This document shows positions 1 through 33,393 of a stretch of DNA of 33,393 bases, piece by piece (within the stretch, counting starts at the first letter, position 1; each line of letters opens with the position of its first letter). The DNA lies in IMG/VR virus record IMGVR_UViG_3300010160_000141, positions 1 to 33,393 of that record; one strand, 5' to 3'. The DNA is from a virus. The notes under the pieces are model-generated. The model did no database searches. It saw nothing but the letters and a program-made list of their open reading frames with translations, and was not told where the DNA came from. The translations under genes and the position numbers were made by a program.

Positions 1-292
1 CAGACTGCTCAATTGATGGGTGGGTGACAAAGCCTTCAGCTTGCACCAAAACGCCTTGTGCGGCCTCATACGCAGACAACGCCATTGGCTCAGTGTCTGT
101 GCCGTGCTGCATTGCAGCATTGCTGTACGACTCAGCAGCAGCGCCGGTCAGCCTTTCACAAACCAGCAAGGCCATGTAATTGGCGCGGCTGGCTGAATAG
201 CCTGACTGAGTTTTTGCAATGATGTCGCTGATGCGGCTGGCGGTTACTTTGCCCAGACGGGCGGCAAACCATTCGGGGCTACGCTGTTCCAT
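1..292 (-). CDS. YqaJ/lambda-type exonuclease, N-terminal half (partial, runs off window start)
   Basis: ATG at 292-290. The 97 visible codons begin MEQRSPEWFAARLGKVTASR, the N-terminal signature of the YqaJ viral recombinase family. These are 5'-3' double-strand exonucleases of the PD-(D/E)XK fold that resect DNA ends so a single-strand annealing protein can pair them. The frame is open to base 1 and ends at an IEQS-like stretch just before the catalytic core. The rest of the same protein is at 33119-33393. The start overlaps the end of the alpha-CTD-like gene by 14 bases, and the SD is weak (AAAGAAAAAC), so translation is probably coupled. The Erf annealase lies two genes upstream and an SSB-like gene immediately downstream, a classical phage recombination cassette. 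Family assignment is by remembered signature; I am confident of it. Confidence 0.88.
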   Translation of the reverse strand, partial: MEQRSPEWFAARLGKVTASRISDIIAKTQSGYSASRANYMALLVCERLTGAAAESYSNAAMQHGTDTEPMALSAYEAAQGVLVQAEGFVTHPSIEQS

Positions 293-665
293 GTTTTTCT
301 TTTAATCGTAAATTTAAACGAGCAAGTTGGCTTTCAATGTCTTGCAATGTTGTTCTGCCTAAGTATGGTAATTTTAATAAATCAAATCTTGTAAGCAGAG
401 TTAACTGCTCTACTGTTTTAATGTTTTCAGCGCGTAAAACATTTTTAGCGCGTACAGTTAATTGAAGGCAATCAATGCCAAGCGTAGTCACCGCTACTGG
501 CAAACCTACTCTGGCTTTTAACATTGCGTCTGCGTAAGCGTAAGACGCTGAACACGCCAGCTCTAAATTTGTTTCGTAATTCCATGCGGCAGATGCGGCA
601 TAAGCGGCCATGACTTTTGCCGCAAAATAGTCGCGCAATGACATTTCGGGTGTTTCGTCTTTCAT
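279..665 (-). CDS. Phage protein with RNA polymerase alpha C-terminal-domain-like fold
   Basis: 128 aa. Residues about 8-52 (RDYFAAK, then AYADAMLKAR) resemble a short N-terminal module seen in many phage proteins of unknown function. Residues about 62-122 match the C-terminal domain of the RNA polymerase alpha subunit: LQLTVRAKNVLRAENI, then LLKLPYLGRTTLQDIESQL. In E. coli numbering the DNA-contact residues Arg265, Asn268 and Gly296 appear conserved (here R72, N75, G103), whereas Lys298 and Ser299 are Thr. The N-terminal alpha domain needed for polymerase assembly is absent. ATG at 665 is preceded by AGGAG and overlaps the Erf stop (TAATG). It may bind UP-element-like DNA or act as a decoy or partner for activators and sigma. 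Function is inference; a plain helix-hairpin-helix DNA-binding role is the main alternative. Confidence 0.8.
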   Translation of the reverse strand: MKDETPEMSLRDYFAAKVMAAYAASAAWNYETNLELACSASYAYADAMLKARVGLPVAVTTLGIDCLQLTVRAKNVLRAENIKTVEQLTLLTRFDLLKLPYLGRTTLQDIESQLARLNLRLKEKHGTA

Positions 666-1222
666 TAGACTGCTCCTAATTTCTTTTTCATGGCATCCTT
701 GGCCTTGATGATTGTGTTCTGCCAGGCTTCATCACCCTTGCAGGCGGCGTAGCCTTCTTTAAAAGCCTTGATTAACGCTGGCTCATCAGCGGCCGCATTA
801 ATGGCGCTGAGATGGTCTGTCAGCCCGTCCACTGTCCTGATCTCAGTGCGGCGGCTACCGGCATTGCCATCATCATCCTCGGGTGCAATTCCGCATGCTG
901 CCATGAGGCTATAGCGCCTTGCGTATGTAAGTGCGCTGCCGTAACCCTGTGGGTCTTGCTTGCTTGCTGGCACATGGAGAATGCCGCACTCCAGCGTTTC
1001 ACCAGATTCGTGAACAAAGACTGTTTCCACCATCACTCCGTTGTCGCAGTCGTAGCATTTCTGAATCAAGGCTATGCCAGCGGCGTTTAGGCTGCTCATG
1101 ACGGCATCAACGCAAGCGGCAAGGTCTGCGTACTTGCTACGGAAGTGCGGGTTTGTGGCGCTTTTGAGGGCTGGGCCAAAAGCCTTTTGTGCCTGTACTA
1201 AGGCGGTTGCAATGTTTTTCAT
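665..1222 (-). CDS. erf: Erf-family single-strand DNA annealing protein
   Basis: 185 aa from ATG 1222. A TTG at 1234 would add four residues but lacks an SD. The block KQDPQGYGSALTYARRYSL at residues about 88-106, followed by a CGIAPEDDDGN stretch, is the hallmark of the Erf family, whose founder is the P22 annealing protein. Erf forms rings on single-stranded DNA and anneals complementary strands, recircularising or recombining phage DNA. The exonuclease that would supply its substrate (YqaJ, from 292) is encoded two genes downstream and an SSB-like protein follows that. The C-terminal 60 residues are Ala/Lys-rich and less conserved. It overlaps the next gene by one base. Confidence 0.9.
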   Translation of the reverse strand: MKNIATALVQAQKAFGPALKSATNPHFRSKYADLAACVDAVMSSLNAAGIALIQKCYDCDNGVMVETVFVHESGETLECGILHVPASKQDPQGYGSALTYARRYSLMAACGIAPEDDDGNAGSRRTEIRTVDGLTDHLSAINAAADEPALIKAFKEGYAACKGDEAWQNTIIKAKDAMKKKLGAV

Positions 1223-1230
1223 GGTTTCTT

Positions 1231-1425
1231 TCAAGTTAATTCACGTTGTAGGTGCTGCAATTCTTCCGTGGCAATCTGGAGATGTTGGCGCTGGTCTTCT
1301 ATGACTTGGCACAGCTCATGTACGCTATGCCGTAAAAAGCCCACTTGGTAAGCGCACCGGACAAGCGGGTCAGCGCTGCACTTGCTGCCGGTTTCAGCGG
1401 CTTGGATGATCTGATCGGCATTCAT
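1231..1425 (-). CDS. Small early protein with C-terminal coiled coil, function unknown
   Basis: 64 aa from ATG 1425, overlapping the preceding 28-residue membrane peptide by ATGA and preceded by GGTGG. Residues about 30-64 are heptad-like and rich in Gln, Leu, Glu and His (CQVIEDQRQHLQIATEELQ), suggesting an alpha-helical oligomer. Its stop TGA sits about ten bases before the Erf start. No family recognised. The unbroken chain of start/stop overlaps is the main evidence that it is a real gene. Confidence 0.6.
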   Translation of the reverse strand: MNADQIIQAAETGSKCSADPLVRCAYQVGFLRHSVHELCQVIEDQRQHLQIATEELQHLQRELT

Positions 1426-1720: not shown

Positions 1721-1810
1721 ACTTGCTCCAAAAAGACCCACCGAAATAGTGGGATTGCTATGGATTGTATAGATAAATTAACAGATGTAAAGTCTTTTGC
1801 CACAAATATT

Positions 1811-1839
1811 TTTATAGGCTTGGCATTTTCTATAGTCAT
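1811..1839 (-). promoter_or_regulatory. Candidate leftward early promoter
   Basis: On the minus strand, ATGACT (1839-1834) and TATAAA (1816-1811) are spaced by 17 bases, fitting a sigma70 promoter with a start near 1804. That leaves a leader of about 80 bases before the first early gene at 1720. One arm of the inverted repeat (1763-1774) lies within this leader. Prediction by eye only. Confidence 0.45.
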
Positions 1840-2305: not shown

Positions 2306-2348
2306 TGAATTGCGTGACGAAATGAACAGGCAGAGGAAACATGAATGA
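2160..2348 (+). CDS. Small basic helical protein, conserved-looking, function unknown
   Basis: 62 aa from ATG 2160, with AGGGGA seven bases upstream. The product begins MNHMLETEAREWVKRHRQKA and is strongly charged and alpha-helical, with a WW pair in the middle and a basic C-terminus. Its stop overlaps the start of the C5-methyltransferase by eight bases. It looks like the small helical proteins often found beside DNA-metabolism genes in phages, but no activity can be named. Confidence 0.6.
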   Translation: MNHMLETEAREWVKRHRQKARELGANAAHLWWRKVSYDIARIRGQSAFDELRDEMNRQRKHE

Positions 2349-3078
2349 GCTGGCTCTTTTCGCAGGCGCTGGTGGGGGAATTCTTGGGGGAAAACTTCTT
2401 GGATGGCGAACAGTCTGCGCTGTCGAATGGGAAGCCTACCCAGCAAGCGTACTGTGTGCCCGACAAAATGACGGCCTTTTCCCGCCTTTCCCAATTTGGG
2501 ATGACATACGCACCTTTGACGGAAAGCCTTGGAGAGGAATTGCTCAAGTCGTATCAGGCGGTTTTCCTTGCCAAGACGTCAGTGCCGCTGGTACAGGTGA
2601 CGGACTCGATGGAGAAAGATCAGGAATGTGGGCAGAAATGGCTCGCGTCATTTGTGAAGTACGACCCCAGCATGTCTTTGTGGAAAACTCACCAATGCTC
2701 ACTTCTAGGGGACTTGGACGAGTTCTTGGAGACTTGGCCTCAATGGGGTTTGATGCAAGATGGGGAGTGTTGGGAGCTAACTTTGCAGGATTTGACCATA
2801 GGCGACAGCGAATTTGGATTGTTGCCAACTGTGCTGGCAACCGATTGGAAGGGAGGGACAACAGCCGCTCGCCAGGACAATGGAAAACTAAGATTCGATC
2901 AATGGCGGGACTATGTAAAGCTAAAACACGGGTTGACCTACCCTCACCCGATGCATTCGGAAATGCGAATGGGATGGCCTGTCGGGTGGACAGACTTAAA
3001 GCCATTGGAAACGGACAAGTCCCACTTTGTGCAGCAACAGCATGGAAATTGTTAAGTGAGACACGCTGCCAGGGTTGA
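2341..3078 (+). CDS. dcm: C5-cytosine DNA methyltransferase
   Basis: 245 aa. Conserved C5-methyltransferase motifs are in order: motif I LFAGAGGG (6-13), motif IV GGFPCQ with catalytic Cys77, motif VI VFVENS (113-117, usual ENV reads ENS), motif VIII HRRQRIWI (153-160) and motif X RLKAIGNGQVP (218-228). The target-recognition stretch between VIII and X is short, about 55 residues. It methylates carbon 5 of cytosine in a specific sequence, probably to evade host restriction, since no cognate endonuclease is recognisable. The SD (GAGG, 2333-2336) is only four bases from this ATG. The gene completely contains another long open frame (2345-3055) and overlaps the nuclease gene by 23 bases. All catalytic motifs are present, so the enzyme is probably active. 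Confidence 0.93.
   Translation: MNELALFAGAGGGILGGKLLGWRTVCAVEWEAYPASVLCARQNDGLFPPFPIWDDIRTFDGKPWRGIAQVVSGGFPCQDVSAAGTGDGLDGERSGMWAEMARVICEVRPQHVFVENSPMLTSRGLGRVLGDLASMGFDARWGVLGANFAGFDHRRQRIWIVANCAGNRLEGRDNSRSPGQWKTKIRSMAGLCKAKTRVDLPSPDAFGNANGMACRVDRLKAIGNGQVPLCAATAWKLLSETRCQG
2345..3055 (+). CDS. Long ORF nested in the +1 frame of the C5-methyltransferase gene
   Basis: 236 aa, same strand as the methyltransferase and wholly inside it. It starts at an ATG four bases later (ATGAATG), so the shared SD sits eight bases away, better spaced than for the methyltransferase. The product looks like a real soluble protein: it is Trp-rich, with MSWLFSQALVGEF, SLWKTHQCSLLGDLDEF, LETWPQWGLM (128-137) and MGWPVGWTDLKPLETDK (209-225). 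I recall proteins with these same features near phage cytosine methyltransferases. Its TAA is immediately followed by the GTG of the next gene (TAAGTG), as expected if ribosomes pass from this frame. Function unknown; a partner or specificity factor of the methyltransferase is a guess. The alternative is a fortuitous frame. Confidence 0.55.
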   Translation: MSWLFSQALVGEFLGENFLDGEQSALSNGKPTQQAYCVPDKMTAFSRLSQFGMTYAPLTESLGEELLKSYQAVFLAKTSVPLVQVTDSMEKDQECGQKWLASFVKYDPSMSLWKTHQCSLLGDLDEFLETWPQWGLMQDGECWELTLQDLTIGDSEFGLLPTVLATDWKGGTTAARQDNGKLRFDQWRDYVKLKHGLTYPHPMHSEMRMGWPVGWTDLKPLETDKSHFVQQQHGNC

Positions 3079-3322
3079 CGCAAATCAAGAGGCTATTGTT
3101 ACGGCGCTACGCAATGCTGGCGCTTTTGTGTGGATCATTGGCCTGCCTGTTGACCTTCTTGTCGGCTACCAGCACCAGACTTACTTGGTGGAAATCAAAA
3201 CCACCTCTAAAAAGCGTTTAACGAAGCTACAGGCCGATTTCTTTTTAAGGTGGACAGGTGGCCTGCTGTACAGAATTGACAGCCCTGAAGCCGCTTTACG
3301 CATGATTGAGGAGATGGAATGA
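3056..3322 (+). CDS. VRR-NUC-like PD-(D/E)XK nuclease
   Basis: 88 aa with GTG start directly after the TAA of the nested ORF; GGAA lies upstream. The layout is that of minimal VRR-NUC proteins: an N-terminal helix (ANQEAIVTALRNAGAFVW), a strand ending in the first Asp (GLPVDLLVGY), then YLVEIKTTSKKRLTK carrying the E-x-K catalytic pair, and finally a strand with LLYRIDSPEAA. Such standalone VRR-NUC proteins include Holliday-junction-type structure-specific nucleases. A role in resolving branched recombination or packaging intermediates fits the Erf/YqaJ genes elsewhere. Its stop overlaps the next ATG (ATGA). Confidence 0.82.
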   Translation: MRHAARVDANQEAIVTALRNAGAFVWIIGLPVDLLVGYQHQTYLVEIKTTSKKRLTKLQADFFLRWTGGLLYRIDSPEAALRMIEEME

Positions 3323-3948
3323 GCTATATCGTGGCATCACTGCCGCCTGTTAAGTGTTTTGTTAAGCGTGAATTTTTGTACAACTTTACTAAGGGGCATG
3401 GCGAGTTAGAGCCAGCCATCTGGGTCAGCCTGAAAGCCCTGCGCGGCCAGGTGTTCCGCATTGAGTCACTGCTGCCCAATTACGGCGCTTTGTATGACAA
3501 GCTGCCCATCCATGCTTATGTTTGGCACACAGAGGCTGGAGACTTGCCTGTAGACACGCTCCAGCTATGGGACTGCATGGGCTACAAGTTCACCATTGTG
3601 GAAAAGATCGGGCTACGCAATTTGGGTGTTAAGTTTTTGGGCAAAGATAAGCAATGGCACTTTGGGCAGTACATGTTTACAGTGGACTTTTGCGCTGACG
3701 GCATGGAAGTTGACACTGGCTTTACAGAGCAAGCTGAAGAACACAAGTCGTTTAACTGGATCAAGCTAGACAACGGCCAGTTTGCTTGCCAGCCAAACAA
3801 CAGATGCCTGTGGTACGACCAGAGCCTAATTCCTGCTGAGACAAAGTTTCCAGACTTTCAAGCTGCCAAAGAGTTTTGGACAGTGGACGGCACACGCAAG
3901 TGGGCTACTGGTGTTGATTGGTTTTACCACATTGAGGAAAAGACTTGA
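3319..3948 (+). CDS. Conserved phage hypothetical protein, about 209 aa
   Basis: Begins MSYIVASLPPVKCFVKREFL, a start I associate with a widespread uncharacterised family in aquatic and T7-like phages. It is rich in aromatic residues, with repeated WxxxD/YxxxW segments (VWHTEAGDLP, DTLQLWDCMGY, YQ-type strands near residue 120) and looks mostly beta. No catalytic motif, signal peptide or membrane segment. ATGA coupling on the 5' side and TTGA on the 3' side place it firmly in the DNA-metabolism operon. Function unknown. Confidence 0.7.
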   Translation: MSYIVASLPPVKCFVKREFLYNFTKGHGELEPAIWVSLKALRGQVFRIESLLPNYGALYDKLPIHAYVWHTEAGDLPVDTLQLWDCMGYKFTIVEKIGLRNLGVKFLGKDKQWHFGQYMFTVDFCADGMEVDTGFTEQAEEHKSFNWIKLDNGQFACQPNNRCLWYDQSLIPAETKFPDFQAAKEFWTVDGTRKWATGVDWFYHIEEKT

Positions 3949-4274
3949 TTCCCGAAGACGCAGCGCAATTAATCAGGGATCGAGCACCACTGTACGGCGA
4001 GGCCAAAGCTCAGCGGGTCTACCTTGAGGAGTTTCGCAAGTCTAAGAAGGCCATGCTGATGAAAGACTCCTTAAAGTCGGGTGTAGAGGCTGCAAACGCA
4101 CAGGAGCGCGAGGCTTACGCTGACCCTGAATATGTCCAGCTAATCAAGGGCATGGCATTGGCAATAGAAAAGGAAGAAACCCTTAAATGGGAGATTGAGG
4201 CAGCAAAGCTGGACATAGAAATCTGGCGCAGCCGTGAGGCCACCAACAGGACACAGGACGGGGCGCACAGGTGA
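3945..4274 (+). CDS. Conserved helical phage protein, function unknown
   Basis: 109 aa from TTG 3945, which overlaps the preceding stop (TTGA) and has GAGGA upstream. Almost entirely alpha-helical and charged: KAQRVYLEEFRKSKKAML, then AQEREAYADPEYVQLI and a C-terminal helix with LKWEIEAAKLDIEIWR. The AQEREAYADPEY segment is typical of a small phage family found next to nuclease and recombination genes. It may be a structural helper for the nuclease or methyltransferase. No known domain. Confidence 0.7.
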   Translation: MIPEDAAQLIRDRAPLYGEAKAQRVYLEEFRKSKKAMLMKDSLKSGVEAANAQEREAYADPEYVQLIKGMALAIEKEETLKWEIEAAKLDIEIWRSREATNRTQDGAHR

Positions 4275-9620: not shown

Positions 9621-9892
9621 GCCAGCCAGTAGCAGAAGTCGGTGCATACAAAAACATGACCGCAACAGGCGATGTAACCACAGGCCCATGCCAGCTTCTT
9701 GGGTTTTACGTCAACAGCACCACAGTAGGCACAGTAGTGCTTAAAGATGGCGGCTCAAGCGGCACAGTCATTTGTGGCACGATCACACCGGCCGTAGGTT
9801 TTCACCGATTTCCAGCGAATGTAGGCACAAGCCTGCATTTCACTGAGGGCGGCACATTGGATATAACCTTCTTCTTTGCCGCTGGCTTCTGA
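9617..9892 (+). CDS. Small beta-rich protein between terminase and portal
   Basis: 91 aa, ATGA-coupled on both sides (portal ATG at 9892). Sequence such as LLGFYVNSTTVGTVVLKDGG, GTVICGTITPAVGFHRFP and LDITFFFAAGF suggests a small jelly-roll- or Ig-like beta domain. Small proteins of this kind recur at this position in aquatic podoviruses and may decorate the virion. No family name known to me. Confidence 0.6.
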   Translation: MSQPVAEVGAYKNMTATGDVTTGPCQLLGFYVNSTTVGTVVLKDGGSSGTVICGTITPAVGFHRFPANVGTSLHFTEGGTLDITFFFAAGF

Positions 9893-12198
9893 TGGCTTAC
9901 GAAGACACAGGCGCTTACAAGGGCGAAAACCCTGGCCCGTATTGGCACGACCAGATAGCAAACGCTGAAAAGGTCTTTGACAAGTGGGACAGGCGAGGCC
10001 ATAAGATTATTAAGCGCTACCGCGATGAGCGCGATGCGGTAGAGATGCCGAGGATGAAGTTCAACATCCTGTGGTCAAACATTCAAGTGCTGATGCCTTC
10101 CTTGTACGGGCGGCAGGCCAAGCCTGAAGTATCACGCAGATACATGGATCAAGACCCTGTAGGGCGCTTAGCCTCCACCATGCTGGAGCGCGTGATCGAG
10201 TATGAAACAACCCAATTTAACGACTTTGACAGCGCAATGGTCAACGCTGTGCAAGACCGGCTGTTGCCAGGTCGAGGCACAGTCTGGATTCGTTACGAGC
10301 CTGTAATCGTAGGTGAGCCAGCGCCCGAAGTCGAAGTCGAGCTTGGGGAAGCTGAAGAACCGCAAGTTTCCAATGTCCAAGAGTCGGGCGAGTCGATTGA
10401 CGCTGCCCACAGCCCTGTGGATTACGTCTATTGGAGCGACTTTCTGCACAGCCCAGCCCGTACATGGGATGAAGTCTGGTGGGTAGCCCGTGCCGTCTAC
10501 ATGACCCGCGATGAGGGTGTAGAGCGCTTTGGCGATGTGTTTAAGAATGTCGGCCTGACTGACCAGAACACAGATGATGATGGCAAGAATCAGCAGACAG
10601 TCAAGACCACATTTGAGAAAAAGGCCAAGGTTTTTGAGATATGGAACAAGCGCACTTTCAAGGTGTGCTGGGTTGCCAAGGGCTATCCCCAGTCGCTTGA
10701 TGAGCGTGATGACCCGCTAGAGCTAGAAGGCTTCTTCCCTTGTCCTAAGCCCCTGATTGCTACGACCACCACGGGGACAATGATCCCTGTTCCTGACTAC
10801 TGCGAATACGAAGACCAAGCGCAAGAGCTGGACAACCTGACACAGCGCATCTATATGCTGACCAAAGCCTGCAAGGTGGTCGGTGTGTTTAACGCTGAGT
10901 TTAAGGAGCTGGGTCGCCTGTTTACTGAGGGCATCGACAACAAGATGTTCCCTGTGACAAGCTGGGCAGCGATGAGCGAAAAGGGTGGGCTAAAGGGTGC
11001 TATCGACATGATGGACACCTCGCAGATCATCATCACGCTGCGTGAGTTGTATGCGGCGCGGGAGCAAGTCAAGCAGTCTATCTACGAAATCATGGGCATT
11101 TCGGATATTTTGCGCGGCGCATCCAAGGCGCAAGAAACTCTGGGCGCACAGCAGCTTAAAGCTAACTTTGGATCGCTGCGATTGAGAAGCAGCCAAGGCG
11201 AAGTGGCTCGGTTTGCTACGGACATTTTTAAGCTCAAAGCGCAAGTTATCTGTAAGTTTTACCCTCCTGAGCTGATTGTCGAGATGTCGGGCGTGATGAA
11301 TACGCCAGATGGTCAAGACCCGCAAATGCTGCAAGCTGCGATCCAGATGCTGTCAAACAGCACGATCCGCGACTTCCACATTGCAGTCGAGGCTGACAGC
11401 TTGGCTCAGATTGACGAGCAAGCAGAGAAACAAGGCGCACAAGAGGCTGTTCAGGCTATTGGGCTGTTCTTGCGTGAAGCCATGCCAATGGTAGGCTCTG
11501 CGCCTGAAACGCTGCCAATGGCCTCAGAGATGCTGCTATTCCTTGTGCGCCGGTTTAAGGCTGGCAGGGGGCTGGAATCGGCTGTTGAACGGGCTATGAA
11601 AGCGCTGCAAGACAAGGCAGACCAAGCTGCCCAGCAACAGCCAGCGCCCGATCCGGAGCAAATCAAGATGCAAGCCCTGGCGCAGTCTGAGCAAATGAAG
11701 ACGCAAGCGCAAGTGCAGTCAGACCAGATGAAGCTGCAAGCAGAAATGCAAATGGCGCAAGCCCGTGCTGAGTTTGACATGCAAATGCAGCAGGCCAAGA
11801 CTCAGGCAGACATGCAAATAGCGCAGATGAAGGCTGAATTTGAGACTGTTAAGCAACAAAACGAGATGCAAATTAAGGCCAGAGAGATGGCAGGGAAGGA
11901 AGAATATGAACGATGGAAAGCAGAGCTGGACGCAGCGACTAAAATTATGGTTGCGCGAATTGGGAGTAACCCTGGGGTTGATTTACCAGTCGTTGAAGCG
12001 GCGGCTGCACAAATAACCAACGAGCTGGGCGGCACGATTTTGACGGCAATGGACAAGATTGCCATGATGCACGACCAGATGGCGAATCTCCACGGCGAGT
12101 CAATGCAAAACATTGGCAATGCCATGCAAAGGCTTAACGCACCGAAGAAGGTAGTGCGGGGCGCTGACGGCATGGTGATCGGGGTAGAGACAGCATGA
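9892..12198 (+). CDS. Portal (head-tail connector) protein
   Basis: 768 aa, long like the P22-type portals. The N-terminal part includes WHDQIANAEKVFDKWDRRGH, FNILWSNIQVLMPSLYGRQA and PKPEV-type segments usual for this family. An acidic loop (about 140-175) is rich in Glu and Pro. Residues about 590-685 contain repeated Q-M-K/Q-A units (QMKTQAQVQSDQMKLQ) forming a long helix or barrel comparable to the P22 portal barrel inside the capsid. A twelve-copy ring is expected at the packaging vertex. It follows the terminase and precedes the scaffold and coat genes. Confidence 0.9.
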   Translation: MAYEDTGAYKGENPGPYWHDQIANAEKVFDKWDRRGHKIIKRYRDERDAVEMPRMKFNILWSNIQVLMPSLYGRQAKPEVSRRYMDQDPVGRLASTMLERVIEYETTQFNDFDSAMVNAVQDRLLPGRGTVWIRYEPVIVGEPAPEVEVELGEAEEPQVSNVQESGESIDAAHSPVDYVYWSDFLHSPARTWDEVWWVARAVYMTRDEGVERFGDVFKNVGLTDQNTDDDGKNQQTVKTTFEKKAKVFEIWNKRTFKVCWVAKGYPQSLDERDDPLELEGFFPCPKPLIATTTTGTMIPVPDYCEYEDQAQELDNLTQRIYMLTKACKVVGVFNAEFKELGRLFTEGIDNKMFPVTSWAAMSEKGGLKGAIDMMDTSQIIITLRELYAAREQVKQSIYEIMGISDILRGASKAQETLGAQQLKANFGSLRLRSSQGEVARFATDIFKLKAQVICKFYPPELIVEMSGVMNTPDGQDPQMLQAAIQMLSNSTIRDFHIAVEADSLAQIDEQAEKQGAQEAVQAIGLFLREAMPMVGSAPETLPMASEMLLFLVRRFKAGRGLESAVERAMKALQDKADQAAQQQPAPDPEQIKMQALAQSEQMKTQAQVQSDQMKLQAEMQMAQARAEFDMQMQQAKTQADMQIAQMKAEFETVKQQNEMQIKAREMAGKEEYERWKAELDAATKIMVARIGSNPGVDLPVVEAAAAQITNELGGTILTAMDKIAMMHDQMANLHGESMQNIGNAMQRLNAPKKVVRGADGMVIGVETA

Positions 12199-32858: not shown

Positions 32859-33122
32859 TTAAAAAGGTATAGAGGAATCCATGTCATCAAACCCACTATC
32901 AACCCTTTTAGGACGGGCAACAGGCGGCGCAGAAAAAGAAGCTGGCGCATCTGTCTTTTGCTCAAAGCACTGAAACCATCCGTCAAACGGGGTGGGAACG
33001 CTGTCCAGCTTAATTTTCATCTTGCCATTCTCAGCCCAAACAGTGCCGTGCGTAGTCCAGTAAGTCTTTTTTTGCCCTTGCATTTCGTATTCACGGGCGG
33101 CATATTTAATGTCGTATTTCAT
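32859..33122 (-). CDS. SSB-like protein with C-terminal IPF tip
   Basis: 87 aa, ATGA-coupled to the YqaJ gene. The N-terminal 50 residues are beta-rich (KKTYWTTHGTVWAENGKMKI, then KLDSVPTPFDGWFQCFEQ), compatible with a small OB-type fold. A flexible Pro/Ala linker (about 58-74) is followed by GFDDMDSSIPF. The acidic stretch ending in IPF is the hallmark tip of bacterial SSB, which recruits RecO, RecQ, exonucleases and others. Position directly after the exonuclease supports a single-strand DNA-binding role. The OB fold is inferred, not seen. Confidence 0.6.
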   Translation of the reverse strand: MKYDIKYAAREYEMQGQKKTYWTTHGTVWAENGKMKIKLDSVPTPFDGWFQCFEQKTDAPASFSAPPVARPKRVDSGFDDMDSSIPF

Positions 33123-33393
33123 AATTTTTCAAGTTCCTTAATTTTGCTTTCCATCTCGCCAAGAAATTTAACCACTTCAGTTTCCAGCCCTGCCACATAG
33201 ACAGGATCGTAGACCTCGCGCACAACAAACATTTGCAGTCGTTCTGGTAATCGCGGATCGTAGCTAAGAAAATCGCACCAGTGCCGTCCCGTGCAGGCCA
33301 TCTGCCACTGGACTTGTGGTCGGTGCTTTGTCGGCATCTTTTTGGCAAGCAAAATATCCAAGTGGTTGGCAGTGTTCAAACACTTGATTTCGA
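33119..33393 (-). CDS. YqaJ/lambda-type exonuclease, C-terminal half (partial, runs off window end)
   Basis: In the frame of the 5' half at 1-292, the codon split across the join reads Val and is followed by EIKCLNTANHLDILL. VEIKC carries the catalytic E-x-K of the PD-(D/E)XK exonucleases. WQMACTGRHWCDFLSYDPR is the family's conserved second block, then a helical C-terminus (ETEVVKFLGEMESKIKELEK). The stop TGA overlaps the SSB-like start (ATGA). Joined directly, the two halves make 188 residues, shorter than the roughly 200 usual. The Asp-bearing segment that normally sits just before VEIK is not present in the window. Confidence 0.88.
   Translation of the reverse strand, partial: EIKCLNTANHLDILLAKKMPTKHRPQVQWQMACTGRHWCDFLSYDPRLPERLQMFVVREVYDPVYVAGLETEVVKFLGEMESKIKELEKL

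Follow-up and report, generated by a model that had tools for sequence, protein, structure and literature searches.

An RNA polymerase alpha C-terminal domain joined to a small phage domain in a phage recombination operon

The fusion gene and its operon

UP elements and many activators exert their effect on RNA polymerase through the C-terminal domain of its alpha subunit (alpha-CTD). The stretch of viral DNA analysed here at its full length of 33,393 nucleotides (IMG/VR record IMGVR_UViG_3300010160_000141; hereafter, the window) contains, close to its first base, an open reading frame of 128 codons in which such a domain follows a small phage module. The preliminary description of the locus had given positions 279-665, which stand, and the frame is now assigned to the minus strand, where it reads from 665 to 279 (ATG 665-663, stop 281-279). 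The placement in a recombination operon, also proposed there, agrees with the genes on both sides:

665..1234, minus strand: ERF-family single-strand annealing protein, directly upstream (PF04404, 9.7e-22)
279..665, minus strand: LRDYFA / alpha-CTD fusion gene (open reading frame and translation; Shine-Dalgarno-like AGGAG 7 nt 5' of the ATG)
2..292, minus strand: YqaJ-family exonuclease, N-terminal part, directly downstream, running off base 1 (PF09588, 2.2e-11)
33119..33391, minus strand: YqaJ exonuclease, C-terminal part (open frame; YqaJ profile, 1.1e-32)

The three genes are tightly packed: the ERF stop and the ATG of the fusion gene share one base (TAATG), and YqaJ starts within the final 14 bases of the fusion gene. 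The YqaJ frame is cut at base 1 and resumes at 33391-33119; hence, the contig probably represents an entire genome that is circularly permuted and some 33.4 kb long. By the criterion of length only, none of its open reading frames could encode beta or beta-prime; the longest (768 aa, 9892-12198) adjoins the terminase gene.

The C-terminal domain is an alpha-CTD

291..482, minus strand: alpha-CTD domain, residues 62-125 (PF03118 over 62-115; fold match over 56-125, Z up to 14)

That this part of the protein resembles alpha-CTD had been noticed from the sequence, and profile and structure comparisons concur. PF03118 (RNA_pol_A_CTD) matches residues 62-115 with an E-value of 6.4e-13 and 48.7 bits, well above the cut-off of 23.8, whereas the Pfam runners-up, DUF2982 and HHH_5, stay below theirs (for HHH_5, 12.8 bits against 27). 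All PDB sequence matches with E <0.3 are RNA polymerase alpha, the best at 5e-8. In NCBIfam, the best-matching models are those of full-length RpoA, and these match with nothing but their C-terminal ends (28-46 bits, against cut-offs of 228-523), so that the N-terminal assembly domain of alpha is absent, as the preliminary description had stated.

The AlphaFold model contains helices at residues 10-24, 34-53, 71-79, 85-89, 93-97 and 104-116; because its confidence is moderate (mean pLDDT 73.5, pTM 0.44), the modelled arrangement of its two domains is not to be trusted. The C-terminal domain, in turn, superimposes on solved alpha-CTDs with Z-scores of 12.7-14.1 and deviations of 0.7-1.0 A over 66-67 residues, for example, on 1z3e from B. 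subtilis (Z 13.8, 0.7 A, 67 residues) and on 1lb2 from E. coli (Z 12.7, 0.9 A, 66 residues). At E <=0.001, Foldseek gave 34 matches, every one of which is an alpha chain or a complex of RNA polymerase. Structure prediction with superposition had been put forward as a check, with an unrelated HhH fold as the adverse outcome; it is the alpha-CTD fold that was obtained, and profile and fold together rule out a chance HhH resemblance. Judged from both, the C-terminal domain is a true bacterial RNA polymerase alpha-CTD that was captured without the assembly domain, even though its identity to other alpha-CTDs is 32-47%.

The LRDYFA module

510..644, minus strand: LRDYFA module, residues 8-52, predicted two-helix hairpin (helices 10-24 and 34-53; own HMM and PHROGs)

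The part in front of the alpha-CTD belongs to a family that is unnamed in Pfam and that we call LRDYFA, a name coined in this analysis after its profile, LRDYF(A) ... Y..AD.MLK.R. An HMM built from 35 stand-alone relatives recognizes the window protein with an E-value of 1.4e-18, and residues 8-52 also match phrog_2201 (5.3e-11) together with three smaller PHROGs, one of which is labelled transcriptional regulator; the PHROGs of LRDYFA proteins include phrog_20565 and phrog_37111. The stand-alone members are proteins of about 70 aa with the typical pattern '...GGPAFP...GMTLRDYFAAKAMQ......AYxxADAMLKARE'. Sequence scans found the family at no fewer than 227 viral loci, at 72 bacterial loci, for the most part in Proteobacteria, and in 64 named phage records. 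Thus, the fused "phage-specific module" of the preliminary description does exist, yet it represents a widespread and common small phage family.

Recombination genes of the ERF, YqaJ, RecT and AAA_24 types lie near LRDYFA at 41 of 72 bacterial loci and at 27 of 88 viral ones; this setting, found in the window, in MW202462 and in contig L075, is common but not universal. Specifically, MW202462 carries the genes in the order ERF, LRDYFA, exonuclease and SSB, the first three as in the window. The LRDYFA family proteins are like the window protein in residues 8-52; most of these small proteins, however, have about 70 aa and lack the alpha-CTD that the window protein possesses. LRDYFA is a small helical phage domain that normally stands alone and often comes from early, recombination-type operons. 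Its joining to an alpha-CTD is a first clue to its function, as it evidently works together with a domain that binds DNA and polymerase.

Repeated fusion of LRDYFA and alpha-CTD

The pairing recurs in three topologies, with LRDYFA placed before the alpha-CTD (the window protein), split by it (L075), or after it (L278 and L292); the E-values of the LRDYFA HMM are 7e-20 for L075, 2.6e-9 for L292 and 5.7e-8 for L278. LRDYFA also precedes the alpha-CTD in L024, L035 and L057 (3e-10 to 6e-10) and, in a degenerate form, in the L026 and L012 groups (4e-6 to 2e-3). In the control for this HMM, 20 shuffles of each of 81 proteins, the top score was 5.4 bits. Since L024, L035, L278, L292 and the L026 and L012 groups were all retrieved by queries with the alpha-CTD alone, the result is not circular. 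The existence of three topologies implies that the pairing arose more than once. A sequencing artefact was considered and ruled out, since contigs that are unrelated share the pairing, which takes three topologies and recurs at a homologous locus.

At this homologous locus, the same operon slot exists in three states: LRDYFA alone (MW202462, L086), LRDYFA with the alpha-CTD inserted (L075), and LRDYFA with the alpha-CTD appended (the window). The L075 operon consists of ERF, the LRDYFA gene split by the alpha-CTD, and YqaJ, its ERF and YqaJ being, respectively, 82% (over 130 aa) and 68% identical to those of the window at the amino acid level. The L086 gene (3932-4144) equals the L075 gene (3932-4393) minus the insert, with nucleotide identities of 90% in the initial 108 bases and 95% in the final 43, and a YqaJ gene lies further downstream in L086; the two contigs make up a with/without pair for the insertion of an alpha-CTD domain. 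In the predicted structure, the L075 insert would sit between two long helices.

The alpha-CTD of L075 shares 77% identity with a betaproteobacterial RpoA, as against no more than 34% with that of the window, and the alpha-CTD of L018 is 80% identical to E. coli RpoA. Judging from these identities, the two look like separate, recent captures from host rpoA, apparently at least two in number. The repeated, separate fusions of alpha-CTD in related phages suggest a widespread phage route into host transcription.

Contact surfaces of the window protein

450..452, minus strand: codon of Arg72, equivalent of E. coli alpha Arg265 (alignment)
441..443, minus strand: codon of Asn75, equivalent of Asn268 (alignment)
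357..359, minus strand: codon of Gly103, equivalent of Gly296 (alignment)

Three main UP-element contacts, Arg265, Asn268 and Gly296, had been described as kept, and alignment assigns them to Arg72, Asn75 and Gly103. Within the 265 determinant, the equivalent of Leu262 is also retained and Thr stands in for Ser299, as Asp does for Glu302, whereas Cys269 is replaced by Val and Lys298 by Thr; Asn294 is changed to Tyr as well. The 261 determinant for sigma (Asp258, Asp259 and Glu261), a functional surface that PF03118 membership does not require, reads Asp, Cys and Gln in the window protein. With Lys298 and two of the three acidic sigma-facing residues gone, the sigma contact of this protein may be lost. 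The 287 region is altered as well (Val287 to Phe, Glu286 to Arg). As far as can be read from the alignment, the DNA-binding surface is partly kept and the sigma-facing surface is largely lost.

These changes bear on the possibility that the alpha-CTD is tolerated cargo, neutral or decaying, at the end of a functional LRDYFA protein. Such an explanation would accommodate the relatives that do without an alpha-CTD in the same operon and the drift of several contact residues in the window copy. However, a domain that, at 32-47% identity, still scores far above the Pfam cut-off, is predicted to fold normally and keeps the Arg265, Asn268 and Gly296 equivalents hardly has the appearance of cargo, and the three fusion topologies argue for selection; we consider this explanation very unlikely.

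Phage alpha-CTDs at large

The first viral scan with the window protein retrieved LRDYFA relatives only, and no close relatives of the whole protein were found in INPHARED or in genome contigs. A scan with a small alpha-CTD alignment yielded 41 viral contigs, with no assembly domain in the matching open reading frames (two of which run off the contig start), and a second scan, with patterns from the C-terminal half of the domain, yielded 56 loci that partly overlap the first set. Named phages with alpha-CTD proteins include Bacillus phage Goe8 (gp005), Ruegeria phage V16 and Microbacterium phage Morrill. Accordingly, the "free mimic" of the preliminary description is indeed a free alpha-CTD, but it is not unique, being accompanied by dozens of viral contigs and by some named phages, part of them annotated as such. 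Several matches to the pooled query were apparent whole rpoA genes (L055 was inspected) and were judged to be bacterial contamination, as were the "phage" matches to the domain alone, which were rpoA of Acinetobacter MD-2021a. When PF03118 was scanned against the class that includes Pandoraea, about 25 of 369 genomes had at least two matches, a count in which free domains are not distinguished.

Because the patterns of the first scan fixed Arg265 and the acidic patch and were biased accordingly, conservation was recounted on the set from the C-half patterns, which leave the N-terminal half free. In this set, Arg265 is present in all 36 aligned sequences and Asn268 in 29 of 36, acidic residues occupy position 259 in 29 of 33 and position 261 in 27 of 35, and position 287 is variable. 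Hence, phage alpha-CTDs as a class retain the surfaces that bind DNA and face sigma, whereas the one for activators is not retained.

This pattern is relevant to the proposal that a free alpha-CTD serves host takeover, lowering host transcription by occupying UP elements or host regulators. The absence of an assembly domain would suit such an activity, and so would the location of the Goe8 gp005 gene in a block of small genes near the genome end. The preliminary description had considered, in particular, titration of activators such as CRP; this is not supported, given that the 287 region is kept neither in the window protein nor in other phage alpha-CTDs. Moreover, single alpha-CTDs bind UP DNA weakly, and the fusion protein, as far as the map shows, is made inside a recombination operon. 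A role of this kind therefore appears distinctly unlikely.

Transcription domains recur among the partners of phage alpha-CTDs. Fusions to sigma-70 region 4 were found in four contigs:

L033, 3377-4201: sigma-70 region 4 + alpha-CTD fusion (sigma match 8.6e-16)
L049, 3494-4174: sigma-70 region 4 + alpha-CTD fusion (sigma match 8.1e-19)
L056, 2365-3363: sigma-70 region 4 + alpha-CTD fusion, also with HTH_17
L291, 3422-4129: sigma-70 region 4 + alpha-CTD fusion

These could be a new class of phage promoter-binding factor. In host initiation complexes, sigma region 4 and alpha-CTD meet at the -35/UP DNA. Other partners are HTH_3 (L294), DUF3310 (L023, L045) and Cys-rich, zinc-ribbon-like N-termini (L044, L050). 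One phage contig, L036, carries a tandem pair of alpha-CTD genes (3215-3670 and 3707-4234). In seven further viral proteins (L255, L257, L260, L269, L275, L282 and L288), the alpha-CTD comes first and is followed by a similar C-terminal region of about 60 aa, '...YFxxHExVxxxYxxSLxxL'. The alpha-CTD can thus be regarded as a mobile module that phages join to their own proteins, often to sigma region 4, HTH or LRDYFA, and these fusions make up a class of candidate transcription factors of phages that is open to experimental test.

Transcription adaptor or recombination accessory

Without an assembly domain, the fusion protein cannot join a polymerase core. We tentatively propose, at somewhat less than an even chance, that it is a transcription or promoter adaptor: its alpha-CTD would engage A/T-rich promoter DNA and probably also the polymerase of the host, LRDYFA being the partner-binding part. 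The alpha-CTD would bind A/T-rich, UP-like DNA through the surface formed by Arg72, Asn75 and Gly103 and would sit beside the host sigma-holoenzyme at a promoter, while LRDYFA would take over the role of the alpha N-terminal domain by tethering it to a partner or to a second copy of the protein itself. The most likely effect would be modulated transcription of the phage's early recombination operon by host polymerase, not a general block of the host. Binding to UP elements or tethering of polymerase, both envisaged in the preliminary description, has good, if indirect, support in the sigma-4 and HTH fusions and in the 265 and 261 surfaces that phage alpha-CTDs have kept. The adaptor is likewise favoured by the DNA-contact residues kept in the window protein, by the repeated fusion of alpha-CTDs to transcription domains, by the several joinings of LRDYFA to alpha-CTDs, by the recent captures from host rpoA and by the label, transcriptional regulator, of one LRDYFA-matching PHROG. 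What speaks against it is the loss of Lys298 and of most of the acidic 261 patch in the window protein, with which the sigma contact may have gone, and the location of the gene among recombination genes.

A site at which such a protein might act can be pointed out upstream of the operon:

1764..1813, minus strand: candidate leftward operon promoter TTTACA-16-TACAAT with A/T-rich CCTATAAAAATATTT just upstream (consensus scan; sequence read)

In the consensus scan, the frequency of promoter matches was not above chance. The A/T-rich CCTATAAAAATATTT, read by eye, is a possible UP element. TTTACA promoter-like sites preceded by CCTATAAAAA, possibly UP-like, are seen both in the window (1760-1830, minus strand) and in L075 (2660-2715), again with promoter scans that do not exceed chance.

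The operon itself suggests a different role, namely, that of a recombination accessory in which the alpha-CTD would serve solely as an HhH clamp on DNA, to which LRDYFA would recruit ERF or YqaJ, and transcription would not be involved. The position of the gene, between ERF and YqaJ with overlapping ends, fits this explanation, as do the frequent recombination genes near LRDYFA noted above and the loss of most of the sigma-facing patch from the window protein. In addition to the window, L011, L017, L018, L019 and L279 have an alpha-CTD gene that touches a recombination gene. In L018, the order is RecT, HTH/alpha-CTD, exonuclease, so that the slot equals that of the window; in L017, it is YqaJ, alpha-CTD, AAA_24. 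Such contacts involve 5 of 46 alpha-CTD clusters, as compared to 16 of the 660 remaining genes that lie on the same strand at these loci, a moderate enrichment (Fisher p 0.009) that is based on profiles grown from few seeds. The location of the fusion gene between recombination genes, together with the five other clusters, makes a direct recombination role possible, and so do the operon setting and the lost acidic patch for a role in recombination only. Yet 41 of the 46 clusters do not adjoin detected recombination genes, the sigma-facing patch is preserved in phage alpha-CTDs as a class, which also occur in fusions with sigma-70 region 4 or HTH domains, and the recent captures derive from rpoA, not from HhH proteins of repair. 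On balance, we regard a pure recombination accessory as rather unlikely, and the transcription adaptor is preferred.

The two functions might also be combined: repeated capture of alpha-CTD and its fusion to LRDYFA would then physically link host polymerase or promoter DNA to the phage recombination machinery, which we deem unlikely. If true, LRDYFA / alpha-CTD proteins would represent a phage-made coupling of transcription and recombination within the wider set of phage alpha-CTDs that includes the sigma-4 fusions.

Relation to known proteins

The alpha-CTD family is known, and phage copies are already annotated in databases, for instance, in Rhodococcus phage Finch, Mycobacterium phage Mithril, Goe8 (gp005) and Erythrobacter phage vB_EliS-L02 (ORF 40). 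The best match among annotated phage alpha-CTDs, A0A6J5QDR9 (133 aa), aligns to the window protein along the whole length. Goe8 gp005 (210 aa) lacks the assembly domain, like the window protein, but differs in its N-terminal part; the sigma-70 region 4 fusions of L033, L049, L056 and L291 lack it as well, their partner being a sigma or HTH domain instead of LRDYFA. As compared to the host domain (E. coli RpoA 250-329), the window protein belongs to the same family, has the same fold and keeps the equivalents of Arg265, Asn268 and Gly296; unlike host alpha, it has no N-terminal domain, does not assemble into polymerase and carries a fused phage module, and Lys298, Cys269 and most of the acidic 261 patch are changed. 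Phage T4 encodes Alt and ModA, enzymes that ADP-ribosylate Arg265 of the host alpha-CTD. Both systems, thus, centre on alpha-CTD, but those of T4 are enzymes and not copies of the domain.

The alpha-CTD open reading frame of an Erythrobacter phage has been reported and was read as a part of RNA polymerase (PMC9127768). We found no functional study of phage alpha-CTD proteins in the literature, mainly open-access, and no description of the LRDYFA pairing, its three topologies or the sigma-4 fusions in the open-access literature.

Other genes of the window

Two overlapping open reading frames on the plus strand, 2341-3078 and 2345-3055 (245 and 236 aa), lie in different frames, and both match DNA methyltransferase families, one with phrog_363 (3e-58) and PF00145 (4.9e-27), the other with phrog_1008 (2e-15). 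The frame at 3319-3948 matches phrog_3704, labelled ferredoxin (1.6e-73); similar open reading frames adjoin the alpha-CTD genes of L012, L015 and L031.
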